Made by a program: the position numbers and the translations under genes | Virus record (IMG/VR): IMGVR_UViG_3300028400_000156 | Coordinates: 1 to 59,685 of that record | Reading direction: 5' to 3' (one strand) | DNA from: a virus | Length of the DNA: 59,685 nucleotides | Shown: in pieces, positions 9,201 to 36,525 of the stretch | How the letters are laid out: every line of letters begins with the position of its first letter | Position numbering within the stretch: position 1 is the first letter of the stretch | Notes under the pieces: model-generated | What the model was told of the DNA's origin: nothing | The model's input: only the letters and a program-made list of their open reading frames with translations | Database searches by the model: none

Positions 9201-10774
9201 CGATGCAGCCCTACCTGCTGACACTGCCGCATCTCGGCGGGCGCTTCGGTGCCAACCGGGCCATCGGCGCCATGTCGCGGGCGTATCGCATGGTTGGGAA
9301 GGACATCGCCGGCGTCGTCATGAAGTCACGAGGTGGCCTTGCTGCCTTTGACTTCGTCAGTGGCGATGCCGACCTCAACATCGCAGTGGACCAGATCATC
9401 GAGGTAGCCTCCAACGAGAATCCGAAGCTCGGCAGCATGCTGCGGGAGCTGGCGGACCTCGGCGTCATCGACTCCACCTTCGCCCTCGAGGTATCCGAGG
9501 CTGCGCACAGTGACAAGCGCACGTTCCTGGACAAGATTGTGGAGGCTGGCCGCATGTTGCCGTTCGCCATCGAGATCCTTAACCGCGCGACGACTGCCAT
9601 TGCTGCCTACGAACTTGAGATGGATCGGCTCACAAAGGCCGGGTTCCCGGCGGCGAAGCGCCACGAGCAGGCCACGCAGTACGCCAAGACCGCTGTCGTG
9701 AAGACGCAGATCGACTACTCGGAGCTGAACCGGCCGCGCCACTTCGTGCGCAATACCGTGCTGCGGGCGATGACCATGTTCAAAATCTACCCGTTGGCCA
9801 TCCTGCAGTATCTGGCACTCAATACCCGCCGGGCGATGGACAGTAATGCAAGTGTCGACGAGCGCCGGGAGGCCGCGACGATCCTGGCGCTGACCGTAGG
9901 CACGCACTTCACGCTGGCCGGCGCTGCAGGCTCGATCTTCATGGAACCCGTGCGGCTGTTCCTGATGATGCTCACCGGCATCTTCGACCTCGAGGACGAC
10001 GAGGGCTGGCAGGAGTTCATCAAGGAGCCGGACATGATGACACGGAACTTCATCTACGATGCGACTGGCAGTGCGAAGATCGCCGAGGCCATTACCTATG
10101 GCGCGCCGCGGCTGCTCGACTTCGATATGTCGGCTCGTGTCGGCCTGCAGAACCTGATGATTCAGTGGAATAAGCAGGATACCTGGTATGGCACTGTGGT
10201 GGGGTCACTCGTGAACTCACTGGCTGGGCCGCTATTCGGCACCGGACAGAGTATGCAGCGGGGCATGGAGTACCTGCAGCGCGGTGGCACCGTGGCGCGG
10301 TCGCTGGAGTATTTCGCACCGAAGCAACTGCGTGACCTGCTGCGCGCCTATCGCTACAGCGAGACCGGCATGACGGACTGGAATGGCAGGGTGCTGGCCC
10401 GGGCCGATGAGTTCTCGACCTACGACCTGGCGGTGCGTGCCTTCGGGTTCACCACTGCGAAGGAAGCGAACATCTACGAGGCGAGGGACTACCTGTTACG
10501 GAAGGAGAGGGGCATAGAGAAGGAGTCGCAGGCATTGCGCCTGCGGTATGCCAATGCGAAGACGCGCCGGGAGCAGCGCGCGGTGTGGGAGGATGTGCAG
10601 AAATTCAACGAGTCTCTGCCGCCGGACATGCGCCGGGCATTCCGCCTGACGCGACGTGACCTCGTGCGCGGGGTCATCGCCAAGCGCCGGGCGGAGCGGA
10701 AGACTCGCAAGGGGATCGTCGTCGACAAGAAGAACCGGGCCATGCAGCACCGGATCAGGTCGATCAATCCGTAG
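6206..10774 (+). CDS. Giant polyvalent internal virion protein with zincin-like motif
   Basis: At 1522 aa this is the largest gene and the last of the late unit. A classic zinc-peptidase motif HEAVH lies near residue 333 (RLLLHEAVHAATVHK), with a downstream acidic stretch EFLAEMM that could supply the third ligand. A long helical middle follows. The C-terminal third (VKTQIDYSELNRPR, then FKIYPLAILQYLALN and hydrophobic segments) resembles the large polyvalent protein domains of podoviruses, of which LPD38 is my best tentative match. Such proteins are packaged and injected with the DNA. Its end overlaps the convergent primase gene by 11 bp. Confidence 0.75.
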   Translation: MKSLATCLAAHKVDPDDRQLINDIHQQLLTAGVDPRVAPLQAVVDTINIAVGDYNAIIKQLRRHDKSLEYHPPYEAPASMADVQRAVAEGAATLERTKKAKKPGLHKRNFETVEQVELAEQQVADGTYEPPIQPKPIDEIKVKVKRKRTAPRDEGTDYIQKRDWFDSLVDLERVGGLDARQDVVIKQVFGQLGGVIPVLADVNTLQDFLDKTAEYGGFTSLKDLLKVISAKLHGNDPYKRLADWLLNVDFGADTILVARTSGALLERDPGRALGSYYHVPYTITNKAGVEMDASLRIIALDAEHAADNDTLTRLLKREGQHDLSSLTMRLLLHEAVHAATVHKMALDEKFSQEVDALRRRMIAHYASKYDMPKSRVIESVYGLRNPLEFLAEMMTDANLQKEAMQVSYTAGDTRAEPGPASTVLHKFIEAVRRFLRVPPTIATVFDRTMLLAESLRVEYSDALGEQSAAYKTIPKVIAEIDEKLYGTDFAGTSSKETTDFISKAKAHDSVLGKVVSPIASVLSDNTEQQLADTWAKIRQGGHATAETLLGMLTLDHIQSRFSKLFQRPDNNPLNDYVDAKSREQAVAKKFERSGEHLHAQWLSIEKKHRGQPVMQEFEDMVTDSTVFQVHPDKAWLDPAHDAIRKNKVRAKVAEKAHARLRSTWNKLPPDMKAAYKATREFYRNSLVQMLDTVINNLTSMYGLTDPLLLDAIESAPDTESLLKLEVPLSNWDSLARSIGHMKELIRKSGPYFPLNRFGNYAISYRKKEVYSGYSSKQKAYDAAQSLASTMPGAVRGKPEKVAGQWQFTMTTEGFQLFENLSDAEAARAALQEDGYEVGGITKKVEMEIPDMSVAGRILAVAAKKLNKDGKVSQAYLEMKNALATMLPDTSFNNRLLRRKNIHGASKNHRRALASYIQAASWQLARLKHRKDVDEALAGLREVGKSRPGQDDGIKTSQVVNEIMRREAINHGDRSKVGEAIAKFGFINFLLTGSYAAINAMQPYLLTLPHLGGRFGANRAIGAMSRAYRMVGKDIAGVVMKSRGGLAAFDFVSGDADLNIAVDQIIEVASNENPKLGSMLRELADLGVIDSTFALEVSEAAHSDKRTFLDKIVEAGRMLPFAIEILNRATTAIAAYELEMDRLTKAGFPAAKRHEQATQYAKTAVVKTQIDYSELNRPRHFVRNTVLRAMTMFKIYPLAILQYLALNTRRAMDSNASVDERREAATILALTVGTHFTLAGAAGSIFMEPVRLFLMMLTGIFDLEDDEGWQEFIKEPDMMTRNFIYDATGSAKIAEAITYGAPRLLDFDMSARVGLQNLMIQWNKQDTWYGTVVGSLVNSLAGPLFGTGQSMQRGMEYLQRGGTVARSLEYFAPKQLRDLLRAYRYSETGMTDWNGRVLARADEFSTYDLAVRAFGFTTAKEANIYEARDYLLRKERGIEKESQALRLRYANAKTRREQRAVWEDVQKFNESLPPDMRRAFRLTRRDLVRGVIAKRRAERKTRKGIVVDKKNRAMQHRIRSINP

Positions 10775-13475
10775 GGATATCCATCTCGATAGCACGCACC
10801 CGGACCTCGGACATGGAGCCCATGCCCAGGCCGGGAGTCAATGTGCTGCGCCGCTCCGTGGCGTTGTGGTGATTCTTCAAATCGTTGATGGTGGAGTAGG
10901 GATGGAAGCCATGGTCCATGAGCCACTTGCGGAACTCAGGCAGGTTGATCCGCATCCTGTTCGCAGACTTCGAGGCGTAGATCAGAACCGGCTGCCGGTC
11001 TGGGTACTTGAAGACCTCGCCCTGATCGTGGCCGTGGCCCCGGCCTGGGAACCGCTCGGTGATGTAGGTGTTGTCAACGGCATCCGTCATGAATTGCCGC
11101 ACTGCCTGGAGCGATGAGTCATCCGCCAGCACTGCCTCTGCAGTATCTTCGTTGTCCACACGCATCTTCTTGATGGTGTCGATCAGGATGTTCAGGATGC
11201 CGCGGGTATCGAAGTCAACCAGCCCGATGGATTTGGCGATGCCGGCACCGACGATGATGGTGGCGACTGTCGTCACCCAGAACCGTTCATCCTGCGTGGC
11301 GTCGATGGATTTGGCGATGAGGCGCTCCGCTTCAAGCACCCGGTCAGTCAGCTTCTCACGCATCCCTACAAGAGTGCGCGCATACATCATGCCTGCGTGG
11401 CCATAGTTCTCTTCAACAGCACGGAGCGTCTGTGATGCTGTCGGGTTGTAGGGTATTTCCTGAGTCTTCTTGATGGTGAGTTCCAGCACACGGAGCATGC
11501 CGGCATTGGTAGACACGATGTTTGCGTCGATGTGGTCGAGCAGTGCCTCGTTGGAGGCTACCGTGATGAGTGTCTTCCAGCCGCCGGTCATCATCTGCTC
11601 GGAGGTCTTTGTGAGCCGGGTCTTGTCGCGGCCCTGGCCGGCCCGAAACACGAAGTTCAGGAACTCCGACACGTCGCGACGTTGCCGCAGCTCGTCCCAG
11701 TACAGGGGTAGCGTGTTCAAGGTGCTCATGCGGTGCGATACGGAGTTGGCAGTATCGTTGAGTGCATTCACACCGTTGACAGGGTGCCCCCACACCGCCT
11801 GCGCGACCTTCATCGCCGAGCTCTTGCCGGTGCCGGATGCCTTGCTGATGATGGAGAGGACCGCACCGGAGACGTTTGAGAACGCCACCAGCGGAGCGGC
11901 GAAGGTAGATGCCAACAGAACCTGTAGCTCGATGTAAGGTCCGTTGACGACGAGGTCAGCCGCAGCCTTCCACGCCTCGAGATTGCCCATGGGCAGGTAA
12001 GCTGCCTGCAGGGACTTGTCTGCGATGGGAGAGTCGATCTCCCCATCCTTTGTGATGAGCTTGCCGCCGGCGATGAATCCATTACGTGACCATCCGAACC
12101 GGCTGGCGAGGAGGTTGACCGACTTGGCGGCCTGCAACTGCTGTGCCCATGCTGCCATGATATGCTTGATCCCCTTGAACTCTTCAAGTTTGAGATTGAT
12201 CCCTGCTACCTGCAGCGATACGTGGAGGTTTGTCAGAGACTCCTTGTTCGCCAGGAACGGCAGGGGCTTTGAATCCCCGATGCGGAACTCCATGTAGTTC
12301 GATATTTCTCCTGTATCCGGGTTCTCCCTGACCTCGAATTTCTCGATCCGGTATGCACTCACCTGTTCCCGCTTGTCGTCCACCAACGTATAGATCCCGG
12401 CTGCATCCTGCTTGAATGGGTACGGGATCTCGTTCGGGTCGTTGGCGCTGGCTCGGCCCAGGCTTATGGGCGAACGCAGCTTGCCGCTGAATGGGCAGTC
12501 ATCGCACTTCGCCTGCGGATACTGCGCGAAGGTCTTGCACAGGGTTGGCCCACTGCGCCCAGCCTCTTTCGCTTCGACTCGGAGGTTGAACTTGCGCTCA
12601 GTAGTGCGGGAGTCGTAGGTCGGATGGCCGCTCGACACCGTGTGGATGAAGTCCCGGCCATCCGTGCAGAACGCCAACAGGTTGAGCGTCTGCATCCATA
12701 ACGGCTCTCCGCAGTCCTTGCCGTTGGTATCTGCGATATAGCCCATGGTCGGGCATTTGGCGATGATCTCCTCTGCATACCAGTCGATCTTCTCCAGCGT
12801 GGCGTTGGACAGATCATCCACATCCACTTCCGGGAGGTCGAAGGGCAGAGGCTCAATCACTTCCTTGGCGTTGAGGATCTGCGCGATGGACTCCGGATCG
12901 TAGTCCTTGCCGCTGTCGAGCAGCACCTTGCACTCACGCGGGTCACTCGGGTTCTTTGTGTTCATCGACCCCGGCGCTCGCATGATGCGCGCCACGTCCG
13001 CAGTTATGGCGTGGTCGATGGGGAACCTGTATTTGTTCGTCAGCTCGTTGAGGCGCTCAGCCATGTGCGCCCACTCGTCATGAGGAATGGCATAGGTGAA
13101 TGTCCAGTAGGCATGCACACCATAACCGGAGCTGACGATGATGGAGGGTGAGGGTAGCTGTGTCTCGGCACAGAACTGCTTGAGCTCAGTGAGCGCCGTG
13201 GCGCGGTCGGGAAACCCCTTGCCCTCGCCGCAGTCCATGTCGATATACAGTGCCTTCTTGCTGGCGACGTTATCGCCGCGTCGAGATTTTGAACTTTGAA
13301 AGCTGGCCGTGGCGAAGTAGACATTGTGGCCAGTGGCAGCAGCTTTTTCGGAAATCGTGGCCGCGTTTTCCAGTGTGGATACGGCTCTGTTTATGAACTT
13401 GTCGCCCTTCTGAGTGACAATGAAATAGGTGCCGCTGTCTGGCAACACCCGCTCATAGAATGTACTTGTTTCCAT
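10764..13475 (-). CDS. Primase-helicase: AEP-type PrimPol fused to DUF927-like helicase
   Basis: This 903-aa replication protein has an N-terminal archaeo-eukaryotic primase-like domain with YIDMDCGEG near residue 77 (metal-binding Asp pair), SSGYGVHAYW near 113 and RIMRAPGSMN near 160. A cysteine group (CKTFAQYPQAKCDDCP) near 305-325 suggests a zinc finger. The C-terminal DUF927-type ATPase has Walker A SGTGKSS near 548 and LYWDELRQRRD as the likely Walker B. It should lay primers and unwind DNA for the phage polymerase. It is last in the early unit and overlaps the convergent 1522-aa gene by 11 bp. Confidence 0.85.
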   Translation of the reverse strand: METSTFYERVLPDSGTYFIVTQKGDKFINRAVSTLENAATISEKAAATGHNVYFATASFQSSKSRRGDNVASKKALYIDMDCGEGKGFPDRATALTELKQFCAETQLPSPSIIVSSGYGVHAYWTFTYAIPHDEWAHMAERLNELTNKYRFPIDHAITADVARIMRAPGSMNTKNPSDPRECKVLLDSGKDYDPESIAQILNAKEVIEPLPFDLPEVDVDDLSNATLEKIDWYAEEIIAKCPTMGYIADTNGKDCGEPLWMQTLNLLAFCTDGRDFIHTVSSGHPTYDSRTTERKFNLRVEAKEAGRSGPTLCKTFAQYPQAKCDDCPFSGKLRSPISLGRASANDPNEIPYPFKQDAAGIYTLVDDKREQVSAYRIEKFEVRENPDTGEISNYMEFRIGDSKPLPFLANKESLTNLHVSLQVAGINLKLEEFKGIKHIMAAWAQQLQAAKSVNLLASRFGWSRNGFIAGGKLITKDGEIDSPIADKSLQAAYLPMGNLEAWKAAADLVVNGPYIELQVLLASTFAAPLVAFSNVSGAVLSIISKASGTGKSSAMKVAQAVWGHPVNGVNALNDTANSVSHRMSTLNTLPLYWDELRQRRDVSEFLNFVFRAGQGRDKTRLTKTSEQMMTGGWKTLITVASNEALLDHIDANIVSTNAGMLRVLELTIKKTQEIPYNPTASQTLRAVEENYGHAGMMYARTLVGMREKLTDRVLEAERLIAKSIDATQDERFWVTTVATIIVGAGIAKSIGLVDFDTRGILNILIDTIKKMRVDNEDTAEAVLADDSSLQAVRQFMTDAVDNTYITERFPGRGHGHDQGEVFKYPDRQPVLIYASKSANRMRINLPEFRKWLMDHGFHPYSTINDLKNHHNATERRSTLTPGLGMGSMSEVRVRAIEMDIPTD

Positions 13476-18040: not shown

Positions 18041-18714
18041 AGGATAGTAACTCCTCGGGATAGCAATTCCCGGTTGATGCTGATGAGATGTTGGGCCTGG
18101 GCCGTGGCGTCGGCGAGTGCACTGTGCGCAACCGCAGGTTTGACTTTCGATGCGAGCCTGTGACCTCCAGTGGCCTCGATCCGCGCCTTGATACGGTCAG
18201 CCAGCTCCACGTCGCCACGAGCGATCATCCGCTTAAGGGCGGGGTTCGTAGGGCTGGGCACTCGCAGTGCCTTGACGGTGCGGTAGCAACGGTCGGTCCA
18301 GAACTCCCATGCGGGGGTGACGCCGACCGCGGCCATGGCGTGCTTGATGATGACGTTGTCGAAGCCAGCGCCGTTGCCCCACACCTCCTTGTCGGAGACA
18401 AAAGTGTTGAACGCTTCAAGGGCTTCGCGCAGGGGCAGGTGCATGCTGGTGTTGTCCGTCAGCAGACGACGTGCGGCATCGGACTGCTTCATCCACCACT
18501 GCAGGGTTTTGGCGTTGACCTTGAGGCCAGCGTCGAGGCAGCTCTGGATATCCACGAGCACCTCGAAGGATGCACGGATAGTCTCCATGTCGAACCGCAC
18601 GGCACCGATGGACAGGATGACGGAGTCAGGCTCGGTGCCCATGGTTTCGATGTCGACCATGATGTGCTGATCCGCGAGCTCTGTGTTGTCGTCGAATATG
18701 GATAGTTGGGTCAT
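18037..18714 (-). CDS. DnaQ-fold 3'-5' exonuclease (DEDD type)
   Basis: A 225-aa exonuclease with Exo I MVDIETMGTEPDS, Exo II VWGNGAGFDNVIIKHAM and Exo III-like AHSALADATAQAQ, giving the DEDDh set of metal and catalytic residues. It resembles the T4 DexA-like phage exonucleases. It could process ssDNA or assist proofreading next to the family A polymerase, with whose stop codon its ATG overlaps (4 nt). Confidence 0.85.
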   Translation of the reverse strand: MTQLSIFDDNTELADQHIMVDIETMGTEPDSVILSIGAVRFDMETIRASFEVLVDIQSCLDAGLKVNAKTLQWWMKQSDAARRLLTDNTSMHLPLREALEAFNTFVSDKEVWGNGAGFDNVIIKHAMAAVGVTPAWEFWTDRCYRTVKALRVPSPTNPALKRMIARGDVELADRIKARIEATGGHRLASKVKPAVAHSALADATAQAQHLISINRELLSRGVTIL

Positions 18715-20540
18715 TTCGCCTCCTTGTAATTGTCGGCAATTGAAAGGTCTGCCTCGAGGGGCAGGTTTGGTAGCCAGGCGGGCGGGGTAGTGAGTTCGTC
18801 ATGCAGCAGCTGCCGCACCCGCTCGGCGGATTTATGGGAATACACAAGTTCGTCATGCACGGACAGCTGTGCATGGAACCCATGTGCCACCATGCGCAGC
18901 TCTGCCTCCACGAGCACGATGCGGGCCAGGGCCTGCACGATGTTCTCAAGCATGGCGGCGCCGTAAATTTTCTTCCACCCGTTGGAGGACCGGTACCGGT
19001 ACCCGTCCGACACTCGATGCAGGTCAGGGTAGTGGATCATCATGCCATTCGGCAAGATCAATTTCTTGCCCGCGAAGCGTACTGGCCCCACTGCAGTGCC
19101 GGACCCATCGAAGCTCATCCTGCCGAGTACGCGGTCCAGATGTTTCCACAGCCTGGGAATCTCCGGGTATGCGCTGCGATAAGTCTTAACCGCGACCTCA
19201 GCTTCCGATAACGTGACCTTGTTGCCTGATGCCGTGACAGAGTAGTGGAACCTCGTTGCGCTCATACCGAAGCCCAGCCCGAGGATGCACATCTTGCCAA
19301 TGAAGCGCTGCGCCACTGTGATCTCCTCCTCTGGCAGATGGTAGAGCTCATTGGCAGCGAAGGCTCGATACGGATCACCGTTGACGAAGGCGTCCACGAG
19401 CTTCTGACAGTTGGCGAGGACAGCGGTGATGCGGGCCTCGATCTGAGAGAGGTCTCCAACGATCAACTTCTCGCCCGGGGCGGGCAATATCGCCTCTCGC
19501 AGGTCGCTGCCACGTGGCAGGTTCTGCAGGTTCAGCTTGTCGTACCCACTGAACCGCCCGGTATGCGCTCCATAGTACAGGATAGGCACAGCAAAGGTCT
19601 CGGATATGCTGGCCAATGTCATGAGCCGGCGTGTCCTCGTGGCCTTGATGGTTGACGATGCCTGTATCTTGGCCTCCGCCAGACGTCGGATCATTGGGTC
19701 GTTGTGGATCAACAGGCTGCGCATGAACTCGTCGGTCTTGGCGAATGCGTAGGCTTGTTGCCCGGTGCGTGGGCTGATCTTTGTGCCCGGCATGACGCCG
19801 TTGGCCTGCAGTATCGCAGCAAACTTGGTGGGACTGCGCAACTCCTTGATGTCGGACACCCCCGCTGCCTGCAGTGCGCCTGCAAGCGTCAGCTTCTCCA
19901 TGTGGTCGGCGCGCCTGAGTACACCGAGGTCGAGCCTCAGCCGTGGCTGGACGTATTTGCGTACGGTCTCGCCGATCATGCGCACTTCCGCCGCCGGCAA
20001 CTTGTTGATCGTCCGCAGAAAGATATCCCGGCAGAGGTCAACGTCCTGAGCGCAGTAGTTCCGCATGGGGACTATGAGCTCAGGGTGTAACGTCTTGATC
20101 TCGTTCCAGGGCGGGATGGTGCGGGTCTTGTCGATGAAGTCGCCCTTGTACCCGGCCCCGCCGCCTTCCATCTCGCTGATATAGCTGGCCACATCGGCGA
20201 GGCGAACACGGCCACGCGGTATGAACGGTGCGTAGACAGGCCGGGAAGCGAACATGGTGCAGTAGTAATGCTTGGGCACATGGCCAAAACGCCACGCCGT
20301 GACGGCGGCATCGAACATGGCGTTGTGGGCGACGAGCATAGCGTTATCCCAGTCGACCTCGCCCAGCAGTTTTGCGATTGCCTTGGTGCCGGCGGCAACC
20401 TGAGTCTCGCCATCATTGATCTTGAGGCCCAGCATCACCGCCTCGAACCGGTCGTCGAGGATGTACTCCTGCATCGTCATCTTGGCGAGGGAGTACTCCG
20501 AGTCGAACACCGTCTCATAGTCCAGGGTTATGATGTCCAT
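18711..20540 (-). CDS. Family A DNA polymerase with proofreading domain
   Basis: The 609-aa phage replicative polymerase has a 3'-5' exonuclease domain at the N-terminus (TLDYETVFD; AHNAMFDAAV; YCAQDVDLC) and the three pol A motifs: A VGDLSQIEARI near residue 361, B RFIGKMCILGLGFG near 412-425, and C SVHDELV near 560. Motif B has Phe instead of Tyr in the last part of KxxxxLGxxYG, a common phage variant that may affect nucleotide choice. It sits in the early unit with its exonuclease. Confidence 0.92.
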   Translation of the reverse strand: MDIITLDYETVFDSEYSLAKMTMQEYILDDRFEAVMLGLKINDGETQVAAGTKAIAKLLGEVDWDNAMLVAHNAMFDAAVTAWRFGHVPKHYYCTMFASRPVYAPFIPRGRVRLADVASYISEMEGGGAGYKGDFIDKTRTIPPWNEIKTLHPELIVPMRNYCAQDVDLCRDIFLRTINKLPAAEVRMIGETVRKYVQPRLRLDLGVLRRADHMEKLTLAGALQAAGVSDIKELRSPTKFAAILQANGVMPGTKISPRTGQQAYAFAKTDEFMRSLLIHNDPMIRRLAEAKIQASSTIKATRTRRLMTLASISETFAVPILYYGAHTGRFSGYDKLNLQNLPRGSDLREAILPAPGEKLIVGDLSQIEARITAVLANCQKLVDAFVNGDPYRAFAANELYHLPEEEITVAQRFIGKMCILGLGFGMSATRFHYSVTASGNKVTLSEAEVAVKTYRSAYPEIPRLWKHLDRVLGRMSFDGSGTAVGPVRFAGKKLILPNGMMIHYPDLHRVSDGYRYRSSNGWKKIYGAAMLENIVQALARIVLVEAELRMVAHGFHAQLSVHDELVYSHKSAERVRQLLHDELTTPPAWLPNLPLEADLSIADNYKEAK

Positions 20541-20724: not shown

Positions 20725-20740
20725 TCACGTATGTATGTTA
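20725..20740. promoter_or_regulatory. 16-bp palindromic operator-like site 1
   Basis: TCACGTATGTATGTTA, one mismatch from the phage consensus TAACRTAYRTACGTTA. It lies just in front of the small Cys-rich gene that leads the polymerase segment, in the only clear gap around it. Five other copies occur at 31.5, 31.9, 32.06, 32.08 and 34.2 kb. Confidence 0.6.
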
Positions 20741-27000: not shown

Positions 27001-27052
27001 TTTCTTTCTCTAAAAGTTCGAGGATGCGGGCTATGTATTCAACCTTCATCAT
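26993..27052 (-). CDS. Possible 19-aa coupling ORF
   Basis: MMKVEYIARILELLEKENG, a short amphipathic helix. It begins at a double ATG inside the end of paralogue 8, behind RBS GAGGAGG, and ends inside the start of paralogue 9. It may serve only to carry ribosomes across the 38-bp gap, or be a microprotein. Confidence 0.35.
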   Translation of the reverse strand: MMKVEYIARILELLEKENG

Positions 27053-28478: not shown

Positions 28479-28612
28479 GGTGTGTTCTCCTGAGCTATAA
28501 GCAGGGCGTAGACGATGTGGGCCACCTCCCTACTGGTGTGGATACGTGCATCCAGATCGACCGGCTTGTACATGCCAGGCGGTGCGGACCAGCTCAGGTG
28601 TTCGTACCTCAT
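28475..28612 (-). CDS. Small array gene without cysteines
   Basis: A 45-aa product (MRYEHLSWSAPPGMYKPVDL...) ending NTP and overlapping the next ATG. It has no Cys cluster, but HTSREVAHIVYALLIAQENT resembles the helical ends of neighbours. A second ATG 7 nt upstream (28619) is better placed for RBS GAGGAAAA but opens another frame that stops after 29 codons. It could be a remnant of a paralogue or a true small gene. Confidence 0.4.
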   Translation of the reverse strand: MRYEHLSWSAPPGMYKPVDLDARIHTSREVAHIVYALLIAQENTP

Positions 28613-28615
28613 CAG

Positions 28616-29185
28616 TCATGGTGTTTTCCTCGTCTTATGTGACCCGAAGGGATAGCTCGGCGGCAGGCGCACCTCGTTGCGACTGACCACCCGCAGCAGG
28701 TTCGCCACCGCCTGTCGGATATGGTAGGTGGCAACGGTGACACGGACGCCGGCACGTAGTGATACCACCTCGTGTCCTCGTGGCGTGCACAGCAGGAACA
28801 GATTGTGGACCGGGCCGGGCGGCTTGCCCGACGGGTCGAACGGGCAGTCGCTGCAGTTAACGGGTACATCCTTGTGGTTAACCGGACACGCCGACGACGA
28901 CCCGCAAGGGATCTCGTTCACCGGCAGTGGCGGGTGGGGGTGCGCATTGATGTACTCCACCAGCAGCGCCAGGTCTTCGGCGGATATGTCCACGGTGTCC
29001 AGCTCGGGTCCGTCCGCCAGGCCCGCTTCCATCTCGACAAACGGACGCCATGTATCCTTGATCTCCCGGCGTGGGAGGTATCCACCATCGCGTGCACTCT
29101 CAAGCAGTGCCGCTATGAGGTCGCGCAGTGGCATGTTTCGCCAGCTGTCGGGCGACAGGGTAGCTTCAGGTATGGTGTTCGTCAT
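28616..29185 (-). CDS. Cys-cluster paralogue 5
   Basis: A 189-aa member with cluster C-x5-C-x10-C-x2-CP (CGSSSACP ... CSDCP, near residues 93-112). The peptide CTPRGHEV after it is encoded by two octamers at 28768-28783. It is the closest relative of paralogue 8 (27039-27608). RBS GGAGG precedes ATG 29185, inside the end of the frameshifted gene. Function is unknown. Confidence 0.62.
   Translation of the reverse strand: MTNTIPEATLSPDSWRNMPLRDLIAALLESARDGGYLPRREIKDTWRPFVEMEAGLADGPELDTVDISAEDLALLVEYINAHPHPPLPVNEIPCGSSSACPVNHKDVPVNCSDCPFDPSGKPPGPVHNLFLLCTPRGHEVVSLRAGVRVTVATYHIRQAVANLLRVVSRNEVRLPPSYPFGSHKTRKTP
28768..28783 (-). repeat. Two tandem octamers in paralogue 5
   Basis: CCTCGTGT and CCTCGTGG on the + strand, members of the dispersed octamer family, encoding PRGHE on the minus strand. 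Confidence 0.5.
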
Positions 29186-29703
29186 GCGAGTCCTCCGCTA
29201 TGAGTTGTCTGAACTTGCCTTCGATATCGCCGATCCCGCGCAGGCGATCATGCGTCGACGTGATCGCATCCGGATAAAACGTCGCACCGAGGCGGACGGC
29301 GGTCAGGGTCCGGCGCGTCTCCGAGACCAGGTTGAGCAGCGTCTCCTCGACAATGAACCGCAGGATGTCGAGCGGGTCCGTCAGACCTGCCGCCTGCGCA
29401 TCCCGCTGGTGCACCGCCGGACAGATCGCACAGCTGCGGCGGATGTCATTGGCCGGTGGAACATGACTACAGTCCGCGAACAGCCGGCAAGTCATAGGCT
29501 CCACAGAGGACGGCACCCTGCCTGACGATGTCCGGCCGGCAGCCGTTACCGGCGCCGCAGTGACCCGCGCCGCCAGCGCCCTGGCCTCGTGGCCTCGTGG
29601 CGAGGACTGCATTCAGACTGTCCAGCGCCACGACAAGATTGCGCCCGTCCGAACTGAGCTCGTCCGGCAACGAGTGTGGTACAGACCGCAAGGTGATACT
29701 CAT
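29166..29703 (-). pseudogene. Cys-cluster paralogue 4, frameshifted at an octamer tract
   Basis: The start (ATG 29703, RBS GGAGG, MSITLRSVPHSLPDELSSDG...) and the conserved remainder (cluster C-x5-C-x12-C-x2-CP, then VEETLLNL and VRLGATFYPDA) are in different frames. They meet at two octamers, GCCACGAG twice, at 29586-29601. Adding one octamer restores one reading frame of 181 aa, reading LATRPRGHEARAL at the junction, which lines up with LATTPRRHEDLSAL in the neighbouring 181-aa paralogue; that gene and paralogue 3 carry three octamers. It is therefore either a pseudogene or a phase-variable gene in the off state. Confidence 0.7.
29586..29601 (-). repeat. Two-octamer tract at the frameshift
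   Basis: Two exact copies of CTCGTGGC on the + strand (GCCACGAG on the coding strand). The same position in paralogues 2 and 3 has three copies (24 bp, eight codons). Confidence 0.8.
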
Positions 29704-29724
29704 GGAACCTCCATAGGGTGTTGT

Positions 29725-30240
29725 TTACAGGGTGGGCTCGGCAAGTTGCTCGAACTGCTCCGCCAGGGCATTGAGTTCGCCCAGCCGCTCCAGAGTGGTA
29801 TAGACCCGCGCAGGATTGAAGGATGCACCGAACCGGATTGTATTGAAGGCGATGCGGTCCCGGTTCGCGAGGTTTAACAGTGTCTCCTCGACGAGATGGC
29901 ACAGGGCGTTGAGCGGGTTAGTGGATGGGAGGCCGACCCACTCAAAGTCGCCCTCCATATCAGCAGCAGGACACAAAGTACAGATCGCCGGCGCAGTCGG
30001 CGATCTGTCTACATGTATTACATGCAGGCACTGGTTGAACGCACGGCACATCGCCCCCTCCCTCTCACCATCATCCTTGACTTTGAGCGTGCGCCATGCG
30101 AGCTGCTCGGCCTCACCTCTACGTGGCGACGTGGCGACGTGGCGCAGTGCAGCACCGAGTCGCGCCAGCGCAGTAGCAATAGCAACCCCATCATCGCTGA
30201 GGTTCGCCGGCAAGTTTGTGAGTTCAATTGGATCAGACAT
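29725..30240 (-). CDS. Cys-cluster paralogue 3
   Basis: A 171-aa member starting MSDPIELTNLPANLSDDG, like the start of paralogue 4. Before the cluster is HVATSPRRGEAE, encoded by a three-octamer tract. The cluster is C-x5-C-x15-C-x2-CP (CRAFNQC ... CTLCP). The end has VEETLLNLANRDR and IRFGASFNPARVYTTLERL, nearly the same as in paralogue 4. ATG overlaps the preceding stop by 8 nt. Function is unknown. Confidence 0.65.
   Translation of the reverse strand: MSDPIELTNLPANLSDDGVAIATALARLGAALRHVATSPRRGEAEQLAWRTLKVKDDGEREGAMCRAFNQCLHVIHVDRSPTAPAICTLCPAADMEGDFEWVGLPSTNPLNALCHLVEETLLNLANRDRIAFNTIRFGASFNPARVYTTLERLGELNALAEQFEQLAEPTL
30120..30143 (-). repeat. Three-octamer tract in paralogue 3
   Basis: TACGTGGC then two GACGTGGC on the + strand. 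The length of 24 bp keeps the reading frame; gain or loss of one unit would shift it. Confidence 0.75.
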
Positions 30241-30778
30241 GGCTGTCCTCGCTGGGTTGGAGGTTGGTGCCAGTGCCGGCACAGTGCCGGACGAACTCGG
30301 CGAACCGCCGGACCCGCTCAGCGCGAATCCTCGTGGCGGCCACCTGGCCGAGATGGATCACATGGCCGGTGCGCAGCGTGTGCAGGGTGCGGGCGCCATC
30401 GTCGGTCAGTACATCATGGAGATAATTCACCATGAAGTTCAACGCGGCCACGGAGTCCGGCGGCTCGGGGCAGATAACGGACCAGAGCGGCGAGTTCGGA
30501 GCGGCAACATAGGCCGGGCAGACAGGACAGCGTTCGTCTGAAGTGGGATCGTCGTACCCGGAGGTGCAGAACCTACAAGTGGACATCAGAGAACATAGGA
30601 CGGACTCCTGCGGCACCTGATGTGCCGCGACAGTCCGAGAGTACTCCGCCATCAGAGCGCTCAGATCCTCGTGGCGTCGTGGCGTCGTGGCGAGGTACGC
30701 GGCAAGAGCATCCTGCAACTCCTCGACAATGGCAATGACCATGCGCTTAGACTCACTCGTACGACGAACAGTTGTCAT
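30233..30778 (-). CDS. Cys-cluster paralogue 2
   Basis: A 181-aa member. Helical N-terminus with LATTPRRHED from a three-octamer tract, then C-x5-C-x15-C-x2-CP with one extra Cys in the loop (CSLMSTCRFC ... CPVCP), then FMVNYLHDVLTDDGARTLHT and helices. Its length equals that of paralogue 4 after repair of the octamer tract. Function is unknown. Confidence 0.65.
   Translation of the reverse strand: MTTVRRTSESKRMVIAIVEELQDALAAYLATTPRRHEDLSALMAEYSRTVAAHQVPQESVLCSLMSTCRFCTSGYDDPTSDERCPVCPAYVAAPNSPLWSVICPEPPDSVAALNFMVNYLHDVLTDDGARTLHTLRTGHVIHLGQVAATRIRAERVRRFAEFVRHCAGTGTNLQPSEDSHV
30668..30691 (-). repeat. Three-octamer tract in paralogue 2
   Basis: CTCGTGGC then two GTCGTGGC on the + strand, encoding ATTPRRHE on the minus strand. 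Confidence 0.75.
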
Positions 30779-30862
30779 AGATTACTCCTGAATTGGTGAG
30801 GTGACGATGTGTCGGACGGCTTCGTGTATGGCCGTACGAGCTGCGATCTGTTGAGGGTATGT

Positions 30863-31432
30863 CTACCCCTTGCCGGAGCGAGATCGTGGCGTGGTGGCTG
30901 AATTTGCCCCGGTGGCGTCGATGTTTGGGGGCGCCAGTGCGTCCAGCTGGGCGCGGGATGCGTTGCTGTCGCGGATCGCGCCAATTGCCTGAAGCACGCG
31001 CTTGCGCCGTTCCTCAGTGATCTCGACATAGGCCGGGTTGAACTGGTAGGAACTCGACAGCGCGAACAGGTCTCGTGCGTGTGGGTCCAGAAGGACGGCA
31101 AGCGCATTGTCGATGTAATCCACAGGGGATGCGAACCCGCGCTGCTTCTGAGACGCAAACGGGCAGATCCTGCACTTGGCGTCCGCATCACCCTGCGAAG
31201 GCGTCAGCGGGGTGAGGAACCCGCAGGTGGTCAGCGCCAGGCACAGTAGGGGTTCGTCCCGAGCTCCAGGCCCGGCAGCTTTGGCAAGTAACTCTGTCGC
31301 CCGTGCATCCCCCATCAGATGGACGGCACGAGACATCCCGGCACGCAGGGTAGTGAACAATTCCACGAGGGTCGCGTAGTCGTCGTGGATCGGTTCGATG
31401 ATGGTCATGCGGTGGGTCGGAGGTTGAGTCAT
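30863..31432 (-). CDS. Cys-cluster paralogue 1, first gene of the array
   Basis: A 189-aa member starting MTQPPTHRMTIIEPIHDD with RBS AGGAG before ATG 31432. The cluster is C-x5-C-x16-C-x2-CP (CLALTTC ... CRICP). The block after it (SPVDYIDNALAVLLDPHARD, then SSYQFNPAYVEITEERRKR) is the family helix region, and the tail holds SATTPRSRSGKG from octamer-like DNA. It is separated from the non-coding origin hub only by a leader with a palindromic operator at 31483, so it probably leads the transcript of the array. Confidence 0.65.
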   Translation of the reverse strand: MTQPPTHRMTIIEPIHDDYATLVELFTTLRAGMSRAVHLMGDARATELLAKAAGPGARDEPLLCLALTTCGFLTPLTPSQGDADAKCRICPFASQKQRGFASPVDYIDNALAVLLDPHARDLFALSSSYQFNPAYVEITEERRKRVLQAIGAIRDSNASRAQLDALAPPNIDATGANSATTPRSRSGKG

Positions 31433-31482
31433 AGATGCTCCTGAGTTGTTGAGTGGTTCAGTGGCCGGGAGGTACGGCACTT

Positions 31483-31498
31483 TAACGTGTGTATGTTA
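31483..31498. promoter_or_regulatory. 16-bp palindromic operator-like site 2
   Basis: TAACGTGTGTATGTTA. Read on the minus strand it is TAACATACACACGTTA, identical to site 6 in the late promoter. It is 51 bp upstream of the first array gene. Confidence 0.65.
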
Positions 31499-31530
31499 CC
31501 TCGTGGCGGGGTGGCTGGGTGGCGGGGTGA
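31499..31530 (+). repeat. Octamer tract, four units, non-coding
   Basis: CCTCGTGG, CGGGGTGG, CTGGGTGG and CGGGGTGA in tandem directly next to operator site 2. The first 23 bp recur at 31639-31661. Confidence 0.7.
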
Positions 31531-31638
31531 CCCGGCCGGCGGTGCTGTTGTGAATGTCCTCACGAAGTTGAGGAGGTTGTGTCACTGGGGGGTGACACGC
31601 GTAAGTCATTGATTTTATTGTTTATGTCCACGAATTGG

Positions 31639-31662
31639 CCTCGTGGCGGGGTGGCTGGGTGC
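31639..31662 (+). repeat. Octamer tract, three units, beside inverted repeat
   Basis: CCTCGTGG, CGGGGTGG, CTGGGTGC; it ends three bases before the left arm of the large inverted repeat. Confidence 0.7.
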
Positions 31663-31664
31663 GC

Positions 31665-31862
31665 GTAAGTCATTGATTTATAAGTTTCTGTCCAAATCGT
31701 CCAAATCGTCCATGGACATAAAGAGACCCATTTGAAAATCAATTATCACACCAAATAACCGACCAAATATGTCAACTATATAGATATATATATCTATAGA
31801 CCTATATACAGTATTGGACGATTTGGACGATTTGGACAGAAACTTATAAATCAACAACTTAC
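31665..31862. other. Putative replication origin: inverted repeat, iterons, AT-rich core
   Basis: Arms at 31665-31712 and 31815-31862 are inverted repeats of 48 bp with two mismatches. Each arm holds two tandem 9-bp iterons (AAATCGTCC at 31694 and 31703; GGACGATTT at 31816 and 31825). Further copies are at 31891 and, with one mismatch, 32018. The 102-bp centre is very AT-rich and contains the perfect palindrome TATAGATATATATATCTATA (31779-31798). Iterons plus an AT-rich unwinding region are typical of origins; origin function is inferred. Confidence 0.6.
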
Positions 31863-31900
31863 AAGCGTGCCGTAAAGATGGACAGGCGATGGACGATTTA

Positions 31901-31916
31901 TAACGTATGTATGTTA
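31901..31916. promoter_or_regulatory. 16-bp palindromic operator-like site 3
   Basis: TAACGTATGTATGTTA next to the distal iteron. On the minus strand it continues into TTATAA, a possible -10 box, so it may overlap a leftward promoter reading through the origin hub towards the array. Confidence 0.6.
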
Positions 31917-31950
31917 TTGGAGTAAAATCAACCTCCACAACAATACGAAA

Positions 31951-31982
31951 TGCACGTCGCCACGACGCCACGAGGTCACGGG
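31951..31982 (+). repeat. Octamer tract, four units, non-coding
   Basis: TGCACGTC, GCCACGAC, GCCACGAG, GTCACGGG in tandem, opposite orientation to the other hub tracts. Confidence 0.7.
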
Positions 31983-32056
31983 TCATTCACTTGTGCCGTC
32001 ACCTCGTCCGACGAGTCTAATCGTCCAACAATTCGATGCCGTCCACCCGACCGATT

Positions 32057-32091
32057 TAACGTACATACGTTAAAATAACATACATACGTTA
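32057..32091. promoter_or_regulatory. Tandem palindromic operator-like sites 4 and 5
   Basis: TAACGTACATACGTTA (32057-32072, a perfect palindrome) and TAACATACATACGTTA (32076-32091) are separated by three bases. Centre-to-centre spacing is 19 bp, about two helical turns, which suits cooperative binding on one DNA face. Confidence 0.7.
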
Positions 32092-32320
32092 ACCGGATCA
32101 GACGCCCCTCAACTTTTCAACGAAGTTATCAGTAACTCCGACGAAAAGTTACTGACTGGGTAGGTGGCCGACAATGCTTAGTGGGATGGATTGTCCCGGC
32201 TGTCCCGTGTCGCACGAGGTCGGCGGCTCGCCTGTCGCTTCAGATTCCCAGGGGTTCGCCTGCACCCCACGCCACGACAGGAAGGCGGATTGATTGTGCC
32301 GCTTCCTTGCGGCTTGTGAA
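32092..32320. other. Gene-free stretch with hairpins
   Basis: The stretch holds CAGTAAC/GTTACTG (32130-32136 with 32148-32154), with an outer ACTTTTC/GAAAAGT (32112-32118 with 32143-32149) as an alternative fold. No convincing gene was seen on either strand. It closes the origin hub before the stop of the next minus-strand gene. Confidence 0.45.
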
Positions 32321-32902
32321 TCATTGGCCGAACACCCGCTCCAGATATTCGGAGTACGCGGGCGTGGTTATCCCGATCTGGACCAGGGCGACGGCGGTAC
32401 CGCGCAGTTTCTGGTGGACCTCCACCGCGATGTATTGCGGATCTTGCCACCAACTCGGCAGCATCGGCACGAAGCCAATGTGCTCGAAGGTGGATACCTT
32501 CCGGACAGACCCATCCGGCTGGGCCTGCTCGACGGAGCGCCGCTCGGTCACGGCACGCAGGGGGAGGACGCCCTTCCGCGTCAGCGCCTCACTCAGCGCC
32601 TCACTCAGCGCCACGGTCAGGCCGAAATGGCCCCCAATCATGGCAGCCGGCGCGGCCATCTCATCGACCCAGCCGGCGATGTCGGCAGCCCGATCCTCGA
32701 GTGATGGGGGGATATCATACATCGGCGGAATCGTCAGCATCCAGCTGAGATCATCCGGCGCGCGGGTTTCCCAGTCGGCGGGGTCACCCTCAGTCCCGGC
32801 CAGCCATTCGCTGTGACCGAGGAACTCGTCGTGCCACTCCACGACGCCCGCCTGGATCTGGGTGTCAGTGGCGCGGTGCTGGGTCAGGTTGATGATCCTC
32901 AT
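32321..32902 (-). CDS. Conserved phage/bacterial protein of unknown function
   Basis: A 193-aa product starting MRIINLTQHRATDTQIQAGV, a start motif (INLTQHxAT) I recall from small uncharacterised proteins in many phages and bacteria. The second half may be Rossmann-like (AAMIGGHFGLTVALSEAL, GTAVALVQIGITTPAYSEYL). The ALSEALSEAL segment is coded by a 12-bp tandem repeat near 32580-32612. It is the second gene of the early unit. Function is unknown. Confidence 0.6.
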   Translation of the reverse strand: MRIINLTQHRATDTQIQAGVVEWHDEFLGHSEWLAGTEGDPADWETRAPDDLSWMLTIPPMYDIPPSLEDRAADIAGWVDEMAAPAAMIGGHFGLTVALSEALSEALTRKGVLPLRAVTERRSVEQAQPDGSVRKVSTFEHIGFVPMLPSWWQDPQYIAVEVHQKLRGTAVALVQIGITTPAYSEYLERVFGQ

Positions 32903-32921
32903 GTCGTCTCCTCGAATCGGC

Positions 32922-32971
32922 GATGCAACATTGCATCATCAAACACCCTCGACGAAGGCGCTTGATGATGC
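32922..32971 (-). promoter_or_regulatory. Leader hairpins upstream of the 193-aa gene
   Basis: GCATCATCAA 32933-32942 pairs with TTGATGATGC 32962-32971. A shorter palindrome GATGCAA-CA-TTGCATC (32922-32937) is nested with it, so two folds compete. A similar hairpin stands the same distance before the next gene upstream (33613-33653). Confidence 0.5.
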
Positions 32972-32979
32972 GGTCACTT

Positions 32980-33019
32980 CCCTGTGACCTTGTGGCCGCG
33001 TGGCCTAGTGCTTCGTGGC
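32980..33019 (-). repeat. Octamer tract, five units, over a stop codon
   Basis: CCCTGTGA, CCTTGTGG, CCGCGTGG, CCTAGTGC, TTCGTGGC on the + strand. The tract spans the last codons and TAG stop of the 191-aa gene (ATKH*), so unit changes would alter its C-terminus. Confidence 0.65.
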
Positions 33020-33580
33020 GTTGGCCGCCTCGGCCTCGGCCTCGGCCTCGGCCTTCGCACGGGCGGCGAGGAGTTCGCCGGGCGTGGTGACCTTTTCGTC
33101 CTCGGTGCTGAGGTTCTCAGCCTCCAAGAACTCAGCGACAACCGTCGCGAAGCCCAGGGCGACGGACTCTTCGACTTCGCCGCTCTTAGCGGCCTTCATG
33201 GCGCGCTGCACCAGCCGCGAGGCGGCCGCGACAAGATCGAATTCCTTGTGGACGCTATCCGCCTTGAAGCTGTCCCATCGGACAGCCTTCGCCTGTTCGA
33301 GCAGGGCCTGCGCCGGCTTCGTGCCGGCATCCTTGCGGAAGATGGTCTGCTTGTCCTCACGGGCGAACTCACCCTTCATGAAAACGCTCAGGTACTGGCG
33401 CAACTTGGCGCCACCGATCTTCGGCATTGCGTCCACGAGGGAGCACGCCAGCGAGCTGTCGCCGTGGTCCTTGTAGTGTTCGATCACGGCCACGGCCGTT
33501 TTCTGGACGTGGTTCACGAACGATGCGCCGCGACGGGATACGGACTGGATCATTTTTTCAATCTCTTTGCGAGTGGCCAT
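33005..33580 (-). CDS. Early phage protein of unknown function
   Basis: A 191-aa, mostly helical protein (MATRKEIEKMIQSVSRRGAS...) with an acidic repeat end (AEAEAEAEAA) coded by a short GAGGCC-like repeat. RBS AGAGGAA precedes ATG 33580. It is the first gene of the early unit and therefore likely among the first expressed. Many first early phage proteins counter host functions, but nothing in the sequence shows a specific role. Confidence 0.6.
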   Translation of the reverse strand: MATRKEIEKMIQSVSRRGASFVNHVQKTAVAVIEHYKDHGDSSLACSLVDAMPKIGGAKLRQYLSVFMKGEFAREDKQTIFRKDAGTKPAQALLEQAKAVRWDSFKADSVHKEFDLVAAASRLVQRAMKAAKSGEVEESVALGFATVVAEFLEAENLSTEDEKVTTPGELLAARAKAEAEAEAEAANATKH

Positions 33581-34183
33581 TTTGTTTTCCTCTTTCAGGT
33601 TCGACGCAACATCGCGCCTTGATGATCTCTCACGGAAAGCCCATCAAGGCGCGCCCTCACAAGGAAGGCGCGCCAGTCAAGCATGCCGGAATTGCGATGT
33701 GTCACCGTCAGGCACAGTGTGACCCGTACCTGACGCGCGCGCTGTTAAGCCTACGCCATCGCTCACCGGCATGGCCGATTCGCTTTTTCGGCAGTCTCGA
33801 CTGTTCAGGCGATGTATGCACATCGCGGCCTTGTCATTTGTGACTGCGCCCGTGGCCCTCACGGGATAGATCGGCGCTGGCATTCAAGGCGTCATCAAGT
33901 GTCCTGCATCCGGCATGACGCCGTGGCCTTGTGCGCGGGGCAGTCGGTCGCTATTCAGCTATTCCGCCCCACTCGCGCTCCTTGAGTGTCCCGACGATGG
34001 CCTGTGAATCAGGGAGACCTGCCGGCTACATGCGCGCCACCGATGGAAGTCAGCTTGTGCGCCTCAAGTGTAGATCCTGCGTTCCTTGCAACTATAGGGG
34101 TCAAGCGGCTAGGACGGGGGGGTGGGGGCGTCGCGCGGTGGCGGGGGGTATCCCCCCTCTTATCTCACCCACGAGGTCACGAG
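33581..34183. other. Divergent control region between early and late units
   Basis: About 600 bp without a convincing gene. It holds a perfect 12-bp stem CGCGCCTTGATG (33613-33624) with its complement at 33642-33653, GGCGTCAT/ATGACGCC (33888-33895 with 33915-33922), GTCAGG/CCTGAC (33707-33712 with 33729-33734) and GGGGGG-TAT-CCCCCC (34143-34157). Two octamers (CCCACGAG, GTCACGAG; 34168-34183) directly border the late promoter. The region probably carries leaders and promoters for both units. Confidence 0.5.
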
Positions 34184-34211
34184 TTGTTTTCATAACATAC
34201 ACACGTTATAC
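34184..34211 (+). promoter_or_regulatory. Late promoter with overlapping operator (site 6)
   Basis: TTGTTT (34184-34189), a 16-bp spacer and TTATAC (34206-34211) form a sigma70-like promoter. The palindrome TAACATACACACGTTA (34193-34208) covers the spacer and part of the -10 box, so a bound protein would block or redirect RNA polymerase. The likely start site, about 34218, is almost at the ATG at 34220, so the first late mRNA could be leaderless. Confidence 0.6.
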
Positions 34212-34219
34212 TCTCACCC

Positions 34220-34489
34220 ATGACGACGATCACAGAAGACCGTTACATCGCGATCTACGCCATGGAGAGCGCACCCAGCCACCAGGACAAGTCGAAATCC
34301 CTGACGTGGTTCACAGCGGGCGTATTCGTTACAGAGTCCGAGGCTGTACTCAACCTCATGACCATGCAAAGCATGGCCTATTTCAAGATCATGAAAGTGC
34401 CGCTCCCCGTTGCCACGACGCCAGCCGAGCGAATTACTGACGATGCCATGCCGAAGACCACGTTGGAACGTCTGCCAGGAGGAAACTGA
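34220..34489 (+). CDS. First gene of late unit, unknown function
   Basis: An 89-aa product (MTTITEDRYIAIYAMESAPS...) with a mixed alpha/beta composition and the peptide VATTPAER, encoded by octamer-like DNA (34412-34427), like the ATTPRR of the array proteins. No RBS can be seen because the promoter -10 box lies 9 bp upstream. It shares one base with the RHH gene start. Function is unknown; a role in switching to late expression is possible. Confidence 0.5.
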   Translation: MTTITEDRYIAIYAMESAPSHQDKSKSLTWFTAGVFVTESEAVLNLMTMQSMAYFKIMKVPLPVATTPAERITDDAMPKTTLERLPGGN

Positions 34490-34674
34490 TGGCCAAGCAA
34501 CCCACCGGAAAGAAGCGGATTAACTTCTATGTGCCGGAGAAACACCTCGAAATTGCCGCACAGATGGCGAGGCACCGCGGCATAACCGTGTCAGAACTCC
34601 TTCGGTGGTGTATCCTTCAGGGGTTGAGAATTGCCGCCAACGAGGACCGGGTAACCAACCCAAGCAATGAGTAG
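34489..34674 (+). CDS. Ribbon-helix-helix DNA-binding protein
   Basis: A 61-aa protein with the Arc/MetJ-type pattern: a basic start, the strand RINFYVPEKHLE, helix AAQMARHRG and helix TVSELLRWCILQGLRI. RBS AGGAGG precedes ATG 34489. RHH proteins bind palindromic operators as dimers, often cooperatively on neighbouring sites. With one operator overlapping its own promoter it is the best candidate to recognise the 16-bp palindrome. Confidence 0.75.
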   Translation: MAKQPTGKKRINFYVPEKHLEIAAQMARHRGITVSELLRWCILQGLRIAANEDRVTNPSNE

Positions 34675-35128
34675 CCTGACCCCGATATCCATTGATCCGG
34701 AGAACCTGAGCTCCCAGCTCGCCTATGATGTGGCGAGCAAACTGCTGACGGTCGACGATATCCTCGTGAAGTATGAACTCACGCGCGAGGAGTTCATGCG
34801 GTTGGTGAAAACCGATGAGTTCAAGAAGCTCTATGCCGAGGCGAAGCTGGCCTGGGAAGGAGATGCCAAGGCGCGCATCCAGGCCAAGGCGGCGATGGCG
34901 GTGGAGGACTCACTGCTGACCGTCCACAGCATGCTGGTCAACGATATGGTGCCAGCCACGGCGCGGCTTGAAGCCTTCAAACAGCTCAAATCCATCGCTG
35001 GGGTCGAGCCCGACAAGAAGGAAACAGGCACCGGCGCCCACGTCGCCATCTCGATCAATCTTGGCGATGCCGGTGGAACGACCATCGAGGCCACGGCGAC
35101 ACCAATAGCCTCCGATGACAGCACCTGA
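34667..35128 (+). CDS. Terminase small subunit
   Basis: A 153-aa protein in the classic position directly before the large subunit. It has a helix-turn-helix-like N-terminal part (LLTVDDILVKYELTREEF), a central helical region (KARIQAKAAMAVEDSLLTVH; MVPATARLEAFKQLKSIAG) and a flexible C-terminus. TerS binds pac/cos DNA and regulates TerL. It overlaps the RHH gene by 8 nt and its stop shares a base with the TerL ATG. Confidence 0.75.
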   Translation: MSSLTPISIDPENLSSQLAYDVASKLLTVDDILVKYELTREEFMRLVKTDEFKKLYAEAKLAWEGDAKARIQAKAAMAVEDSLLTVHSMLVNDMVPATARLEAFKQLKSIAGVEPDKKETGTGAHVAISINLGDAGGTTIEATATPIASDDST

Positions 35129-36525
35129 TGGCTGGTGATTTCACGTTTGACTACACCCCGCCGCCGACGCTCAGACGCATGATGCTGTCGGACGCCCGGG
35201 TGCGGGTGGTGCGTGGCCCAGTGGGTTCGGGCAAGACGACAGCGATGATTATGGAGCTGTTGCGACGTGCCGCGGCGCAGGCACCTGGCCCCGACGGCGT
35301 GCGGCGATCCCGTGGCGTCGTGGTGCGCAACACCCTGCCCCAGCTCAAATCCACCTGTCTCGAGTCCATAATGACCCTGCTCGGGCCCATAGCGCGGTAC
35401 AGGGCCAGTGACCATATCGTGCAGATCCGGGCGGGTGACATTCACTCGGACTGGCTGTTGTTGCCGCTCGACACTGCCGAGAACGTGCAGCGGCTGCTCT
35501 CCCTGGAGCTCACCTTCGGCTGGATATCCGAGGTGCGGGAAGTGGACCCGCAGATCGCCATGGACGTGTACTCGCGGCTGGGGCGGTATCCGTCGAAGGC
35601 CATCGTGCCGCCGACGTGGTATGGCCTCGTGATGGAGACCAACTCGTTCTCGGAGGACTCGCCGTGGAACGAGCTGCTGGAGCACAACCTGCCTGACAAC
35701 TGGGAGTATTTCATCCAGCCATCGGGCCTCTCGCCGGAGGCGGAGAACGTGGAGAACCTCCCGCCGGACTACTACAAGGACATGGTGGCGTCCAACACGC
35801 CGGAGTGGGTGGAGCAGTACGTCGAGAACAAGGTCACGCCGTCACTCAGTGGCCAGGCGGTCTACAAGGAGTCCTGGGTCGATGACTTCCATACGGCGCG
35901 GGGGCTCACCACATCGCCGGGCATGCCGCTCATCGTCGGCATGGACTTCGCCCGGTGGCCGGCCGCGGTCATCACGCAGCTCGACAATCGCGGGTCGCTG
36001 CGGGTGTTCAAGGAGCTGGAGCACGAGAACTGCGGCGTGGAGAAATTTGTCGACGAGGACTTGTTGCCGACGCTCATGGAGGACGAACGGTTCCGGTCCA
36101 AGTCCATACTGGTCGTGGGCGACCCGTCGGGCGTGAGCCGGGGGGAGATCGGCGAGGAGTCGGTGTTCGACATGCTCAAGCGCAAGGGGTTTTCGGCGGC
36201 GCCGGCGATGACCAATAACATCCAGCCGCGCATACGTGCCGTCGAGAAGTACCTGTTGCAGCAGCGCTCGGGCAAGGCGGCACTGCTGGTGGACCGTGAC
36301 GGATGCCCCAAACTCATACAGGGCTTCCGTGGGGAGTACCGGTACAAGAGAAAACGGGGGTCTGGCGTTATGGATACGAAGCCCGACAAGACGAACCGGC
36401 CATTTGCTGACTTGCATGACGCCCTGCAGTACGCCTGCCTGGGTACATCCAAGCAGATACTGGGCCGCGTGATGGTCAGATCGCGCGAGCCGGAGCGTCC
36501 GCCGCCCATAGCGAGCTGGACTTGA
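35128..36525 (+). CDS. Terminase large subunit
   Basis: The 465-aa DNA packaging motor. N-terminal ATPase: Walker A GPVGSGKTT near residue 31-39, with GWISEVREVD as probable Walker B/catalytic Glu. C-terminal RNase H-like nuclease: LIVGMDFAR near 270, VVGDPSGVSRGE near 330 and FADLHDALQYACLG near 430 supply the metal-binding Asp residues. It cuts and pumps phage DNA through the portal. Two octamer-like units lie inside its 5' part. Confidence 0.88.
   Translation: MAGDFTFDYTPPPTLRRMMLSDARVRVVRGPVGSGKTTAMIMELLRRAAAQAPGPDGVRRSRGVVVRNTLPQLKSTCLESIMTLLGPIARYRASDHIVQIRAGDIHSDWLLLPLDTAENVQRLLSLELTFGWISEVREVDPQIAMDVYSRLGRYPSKAIVPPTWYGLVMETNSFSEDSPWNELLEHNLPDNWEYFIQPSGLSPEAENVENLPPDYYKDMVASNTPEWVEQYVENKVTPSLSGQAVYKESWVDDFHTARGLTTSPGMPLIVGMDFARWPAAVITQLDNRGSLRVFKELEHENCGVEKFVDEDLLPTLMEDERFRSKSILVVGDPSGVSRGEIGEESVFDMLKRKGFSAAPAMTNNIQPRIRAVEKYLLQQRSGKAALLVDRDGCPKLIQGFRGEYRYKRKRGSGVMDTKPDKTNRPFADLHDALQYACLGTSKQILGRVMVRSREPERPPPIASWT

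Follow-up and report, generated by a model that had tools for sequence, protein, structure and literature searches.

A gene-free gap in a podovirus record (IMG/VR IMGVR_UViG_3300028400_000156; its 59,685 nt, analysed in full, are the window referred to below) is very probably the origin of phage DNA replication, with the build known from SaPI and PICI elements; an initiator would bind there and the centre would melt. This reading draws on the anatomy of the region, its recurrence in distant relatives, and the domains and predicted fold of the proposed initiator, all directly seen in the data, and on analogy with characterized origins. The initial annotation had marked a replication origin candidate here, which is now supported, since the layout is kept in relatives while its letters change and the phage encodes an initiator of the matching class.

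Two arms of 48 nt, separated by 102 nt, form 46 pairs (96% complementary), in agreement with the match first annotated. They are the single spaced inverted repeat of the window with at least 20 bp, 88% identity and a spacer of 20 to 400. The extension score of this repeat is 42, against top scores of 13 in 300 dinucleotide shuffles of the region and 16 in 5 shuffles of the whole window, which is far outside chance. The tandem 9-bp iterons and the iteron-like copies to their right, also annotated before, were recovered (Table 1): each arm holds three units in the order TTTCTGTCC-AAATCGTCC-AAATCGTCC, and additional GTCCA cores are found at 31626, 31713, 31879, 31890, 32023 and 32041. Of the eight AATCGTCC octamers in the window, six fall within 31695-32026, and scanning the window revealed no second iteron cluster of the arm type. 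The centre is indeed very AT-rich, its GC content of 28.4% being the minimum for any 102-bp stretch in the record, and it contains the palindrome already described. No family match was obtained for the ORFs inside the gap, whose exact bounds had to be corrected to 31433-32320. No DNA similarity to the region was found among annotated phages.

Table 1. Coordinates of the candidate origin and of the associated genes in the window.
Feature	Position	Strand	Evidence and remarks
PrimPol-DUF927 primase-helicase, 903 aa, proposed initiator	10764..13475	-	domain, PDB, alignment and fold evidence
Family A DNA polymerase, proposed primer extender	18711..20540	-	family match
Gap with origin-like region, 888 bp	31433..32320		ORF map and start-site reading; flanked by minus-strand genes 32321-32902 and 30863-31432
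IHF-like element (TAAGYNNTTG core), outer copy	31600..31614	-	exact WATCAANNNNTTR match, conserved core
Outlying iteron-like copy TTTATGTCC	31622..31630	+	inside 33-nt direct repeat 31598-31630 / 31662-31694
IHF-like element, outer end of left arm	31664..31678	-	WATCAANNNNTTR match, conserved core
Left arm, inverted repeat	31665..31712	+	repeat scan, shuffles
Left iteron set, three tandem 9-bp units	31685..31711	+	iteron mapping, strict tandem-inverted test
AT-rich centre, predicted melting site	31713..31814		lowest-GC 102 bp; 20-bp palindrome 31779-31798
Right arm, inverted repeat	31815..31862	-	repeat scan, shuffles
Right iteron set, three tandem 9-bp units, inverted	31816..31842	-	iteron mapping, strict tandem-inverted test
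IHF-like element, outer end of right arm	31849..31863	+	WATCAANNNNTTR match, conserved core
Two additional iteron-like copies	31879..31899	-	iteron mapping
Three of five 16-bp palindromes TAACGTAYRTACGTTA	31901..32091 (31901, 32057, 32076)		probably regulator operators, not origin parts
Two additional iteron-like copies	32019..32045	+	iteron mapping

The terminase gene is located at 35128-36525, with genes for connector, major head, internal virion and tail proteins to its right. To the left of the gap, the genes of a minus-strand replication unit encode exonucleases, a SNF2-type helicase and, as annotated initially, the phage's own primase-helicase and polymerase. Among the remaining genes, the one at 52483-55101 (+) encodes 872 aa, of which residues 134-448 match the N4-type giant virion RNA polymerase family (phrog_2206, 4e-10). 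The neighbor of the gap at 32321-32902 (-) has a weak, sub-threshold NCBIfam match to Csx20 (9e-9), a CRISPR-associated ring nuclease family, and its product is possibly an anti-CRISPR-type protein. Tandem 8-bp repeats of the GCCACGAG/GCCACGAC type are dispersed over the early genes (25731-33012), with 10 copies in one family, and could be related to ribosome sites.

The circularised 55.8-kb unit assumed in the initial annotation remains unproven. It relies on a 1315-bp repeat (1577-2891 / 57409-58723) within two tail-fibre-like genes, the left copy having a signal-peptide-like start; the copies are 91% identical and do not constitute an identical terminal repeat. A closed genome of this size is not established because the ends carry bacterial genes, for a LeuA dimerisation domain (1-486) and a uracil-DNA glycosylase (492-1301) on the left, and an integrase-core (IS) transposase on the right (58868-59308). 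These ends represent either host DNA around an integrated phage or a chimeric contig. A copy of the primase-helicase with 100% identity is present in a short low-coverage contig (JALVTA010000203.1, our L181) binned as a Thiotrichales bacterium, which gives a hint of the host.

As judged from sequence and from the predicted structure, the phage encodes an initiator helicase of the SaPIbov1 Rep / SCCmec Cch type. All 15 homologues in an alignment keep the D79/D81 acidic pair, H121 and the Walker A lysine K551. The NCBIfam matches of the protein, to SCC Cch1 and PriS, are sub-threshold, and the PDB sequence search retrieved SCCmec Cch (5DGK). The same structure was the top Foldseek match in the PDB (2.6e-18) for an AlphaFold2 model based on 13 aligned homologues (mean pLDDT 78), with SaPIbov1 Rep (8TCH) in second place (7e-14) and PrimPol structures after it. 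Cch carries DUF927 and is kin to SaPIbov1 Rep, and it is the C-terminal domain of SaPI Rep that reads the iterons (PMC7581432). Near the C-terminus of the phage protein, residues 832-899 are predicted to adopt the order strand-strand-helix-helix-strand-strand, which agrees with the winged-helix end reported for helicases of this class (PMC5862659). A PrimPol-DUF927 protein is encoded by all the relatives of at least 58 kb that were searched.

The relatives, mostly uncultured contigs, were gathered via the terminase from IMG/VR and GenBank and scanned for spaced inverted repeats and clustered 7-8-mers, the candidate regions being partly picked by eye. Many of them have an AT-rich intergenic gap with two opposed sets of 8-9-bp iterons, whose letters differ: AAATGTCCA in L020/G003, AAATGTCTA in L018/G002, TAATGGTCC in L010, AATTATCCA in L022/G004, TTCATTCCG in G018 and TATTCTTT in L037. 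The sets are 106, 96, 122, 130 and 93 bp apart in the clearest relatives (102 bp in the window), and 78 bp apart in one Ruminococcus phage. With a strict test, which demands an exact tandem pair and an inverted partner no more than 400 bp away, 11 of 27 candidate regions were positive, compared with 21 of 1729 control tiles. Outside the group, three unrelated DUF927 phages of Firmicutes were examined (Thermoanaerobacterium phage THSA-485A, Roseburia phage Jekyll and Ruminococcus phage phiRg507T2_3), all with opposed GTAAC-core iterons around AT-rich DNA close 3' of the helicase gene. Their layouts give independent support for an origin, and 9 of the 24 other regions are positive when these three are left out. 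Clear iterons were absent in several distant relatives (e.g. G011, G012 and G020) by repeat scans and the strict test. Scans of viral contigs for exact patterns of the iteron/spacer/iteron layout gave no matches because the iterons differ between phages. Since the iteron letters drift and the arrangement stays, the arrangement is probably the target of selection.

This comparison also bears on a long RNA hairpin or cruciform, acting as a small RNA, a processing site or a terminator-like structure. Folding of the strand is far above that of its shuffles (z -13.8), but what recurs with other letters is the succession of iterons, AT-rich centre and inverted iterons; therefore the conserved feature is this succession and not the long hairpin, whose stem is unconserved. 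Rfam gives only sub-threshold microRNA hairpins, which we discarded as an artefact of the long inverted repeat. We consider a hairpin or cruciform highly improbable as an explanation of the region, and the cruciform extrusion contemplated in the initial annotation is unlikely as a function because only short iteron sets, not 48 bp, are inverted in relatives.

Three exact WATCAANNNNTTR IHF-consensus sites, out of five in the whole record, adjoin the iterons on the outside; such sites at the arm ends were absent from the initial annotation. The corresponding conserved core in relatives is TAAGYNNTTG, mostly GCTAAGTNNTTGATTT, and the region in the window has three copies. The candidate regions, 14.5 kb in total, contain 19 copies of the core, spread over 15 of 22 genomes, against 24 copies in the remaining 1.01 Mb, so that the density of the GCTAAGTNNTTGATTT element is about 55 times higher in the candidate regions, from which the motif was partly learned; dinucleotide shuffles of these regions contain a mean of 1.4 and a maximum of 6. 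At loci outside the motif discovery, 7 of 26 matches are non-coding, where non-coding sequence amounts to 4.6% (binomial p 1e-4). The negative control was mixed, since Burkholderia phage BcepC6B, a terminase relative with a different primase, has zero elements and Cronobacter phage Ss1 has three. Several relatives keep TAAGYNNTTG yet depart from the IHF consensus. We dropped the idea of a plain IHF site and use the name IHF-like element because its conserved letters extend past that consensus and, in some relatives, contradict it. IHF would be the simplest reader of the element, but with these additional letters a different protein could also be the reader.

IHF sites occur in phage control regions too, and the gap heads the minus-strand early unit. 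It could thus be an early control region only, in which the iterons would be operators of a regulator, IHF would loop the DNA and the AT-rich centre would be a promoter. Operator-like sequences do exist there: the 16-bp palindrome TAACGTAYRTACGTTA has exactly five copies in the record (31483, 31901, 32057, 32076 and 34193), spanning 2.7 kb (31483-34208) and standing ahead of leftward and rightward genes alike. These copies are likely operators, their regulator perhaps being the ribbon-helix-helix protein at 34489-34674, and part of the gap would be regulatory because of their presence. However, the palindromes are a repeat type separate from the iterons and could be the operators instead, and the promoter scan of the region showed no excess. 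Moreover, the iteron layout follows the DUF927 helicase even in the unrelated phages, in which it is placed 3' of the gene for this helicase, and SaPI/PICI origins are described as having such symmetric iterons on both sides of the lowest-GC stretch. An exclusively regulatory role is, for these reasons, unlikely. In L010, a different palindrome (TTATTCGNGAATAA-like) is found at similar places; the idea that the protein at 33005-33580 has counterparts in L008 and L010 failed on comparison.

A packaging or site-specific recombination site (pac, cos or attachment site) was also considered, as the terminase genes are 3 kb away and inverted repeats with IHF sites are found at some recombination sites. 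Among relatives, however, the region sits at varying distances from the terminase gene and not always on the same side of it, while the DUF927 helicase is constantly present, and an integrase was not found among the genes tested. We regard such a site as very unlikely.

Regarding GC skew, a check proposed in the initial annotation, the cumulative curve has a maximum, and not a minimum, 80 bp from the site, a position confounded by the nearby change of gene direction. Of 14 phages, most have a skew extreme no more than 3 kb away from the candidate origin, its sign going either way. GC skew is undecisive because the direction of transcription changes nearby and the sign differs between phages.

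An origin of the theta type had been suggested, and of this proposal the origin stands, but the classical features of theta plasmids do not: no DnaA box is found near the iterons, the sole TTWTNCACA of the window being at 20738. Iteron plasmids such as RK2, pSC101 and R6K share with our region the iterons, the AT-rich DNA and, in many cases, an IHF site; their repeats are longer and direct and usually accompanied by DnaA boxes, whereas here the iterons are of 9 bp and in two inverted sets. Satellite phage P4 offers another likeness, as its alpha protein joins primase and helicase and iterons mark its ori/crr origin. Nevertheless, ori and crr are separate sites in P4, whose helicase is of a different family, while a single site is seen here and a diverged second one may exist.

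The SaPI/PICI origin provides the closest model. In PICI origins, an AT-rich region always has one set of iterons on each side (PMC6092414), which is the layout found in the window, and in one survey this layout was reported only for phage-parasitic chromosomal islands. The element-encoded helicase is likewise of the SaPIbov1 Rep class (DUF927; fold matches 8TCH and 5DGK), and resembles SCCmec Cch by sequence and predicted fold. In Cch2, the helicase also reads short repeats (PMC7581432), but it is a member of a different helicase family, and its origin, located downstream of the gene, has three direct repeats of 5 nt, in contrast to the two inverted 9-bp sets around an AT-rich centre. There are differences from the SaPI/PICI origins (SaPIbov1, EcCICFT073) as well: the primase is fused to the initiator, and there are additional conserved IHF-like elements. 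In addition, those origins are directly 3' of rep, whereas our region, at 31.7 kb, and the gene of the proposed initiator are 18 kb apart, which counts against the origin reading. The element is not a PICI because it is a complete phage, with terminase, connector, head and tail genes of its own in place of a dependence on helper structural genes. A SaPI-type origin in a full-size podovirus, at this distance from its initiator gene, is most likely the best reading.

In such an origin, the winged-helix-like C-terminal domain of the primase-helicase would bind the 9-bp iterons on both sides, and a bending protein, probably IHF, would occupy the elements that border the iteron sets on the outside and help give the complex its shape. 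The AT-rich centre would then be melted by helicase rings assembled on both sides, the fused PrimPol domain would prime, and the phage family A polymerase would extend the primers, probably bidirectionally.

We tentatively suggest, as a possibility that goes well beyond this region, that these phages are a large group of complete podoviruses with SaPI-type origins, that GCTAAGTNNTTGATTT is a part of the initiation machinery beyond an IHF site, and that an ancestral DUF927 replicon was shared with SaPI/PICI, the iterons drifting together with the initiator. The presence of the SaPI-type layout and of the same initiator class in full-size phages would link satellite and phage replicons, and the layout predicts origin positions for many uncultured phages. 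In a cultured one, Rhizobium phage RHph_TM3_14A, the origin is predicted at about 19.4-20.1 kb. The diverged natural pairs of iterons and initiators may help to clarify DNA recognition and melting by DUF927 (MCM-like) helicases, and the extra conserved element would be a new and testable part.
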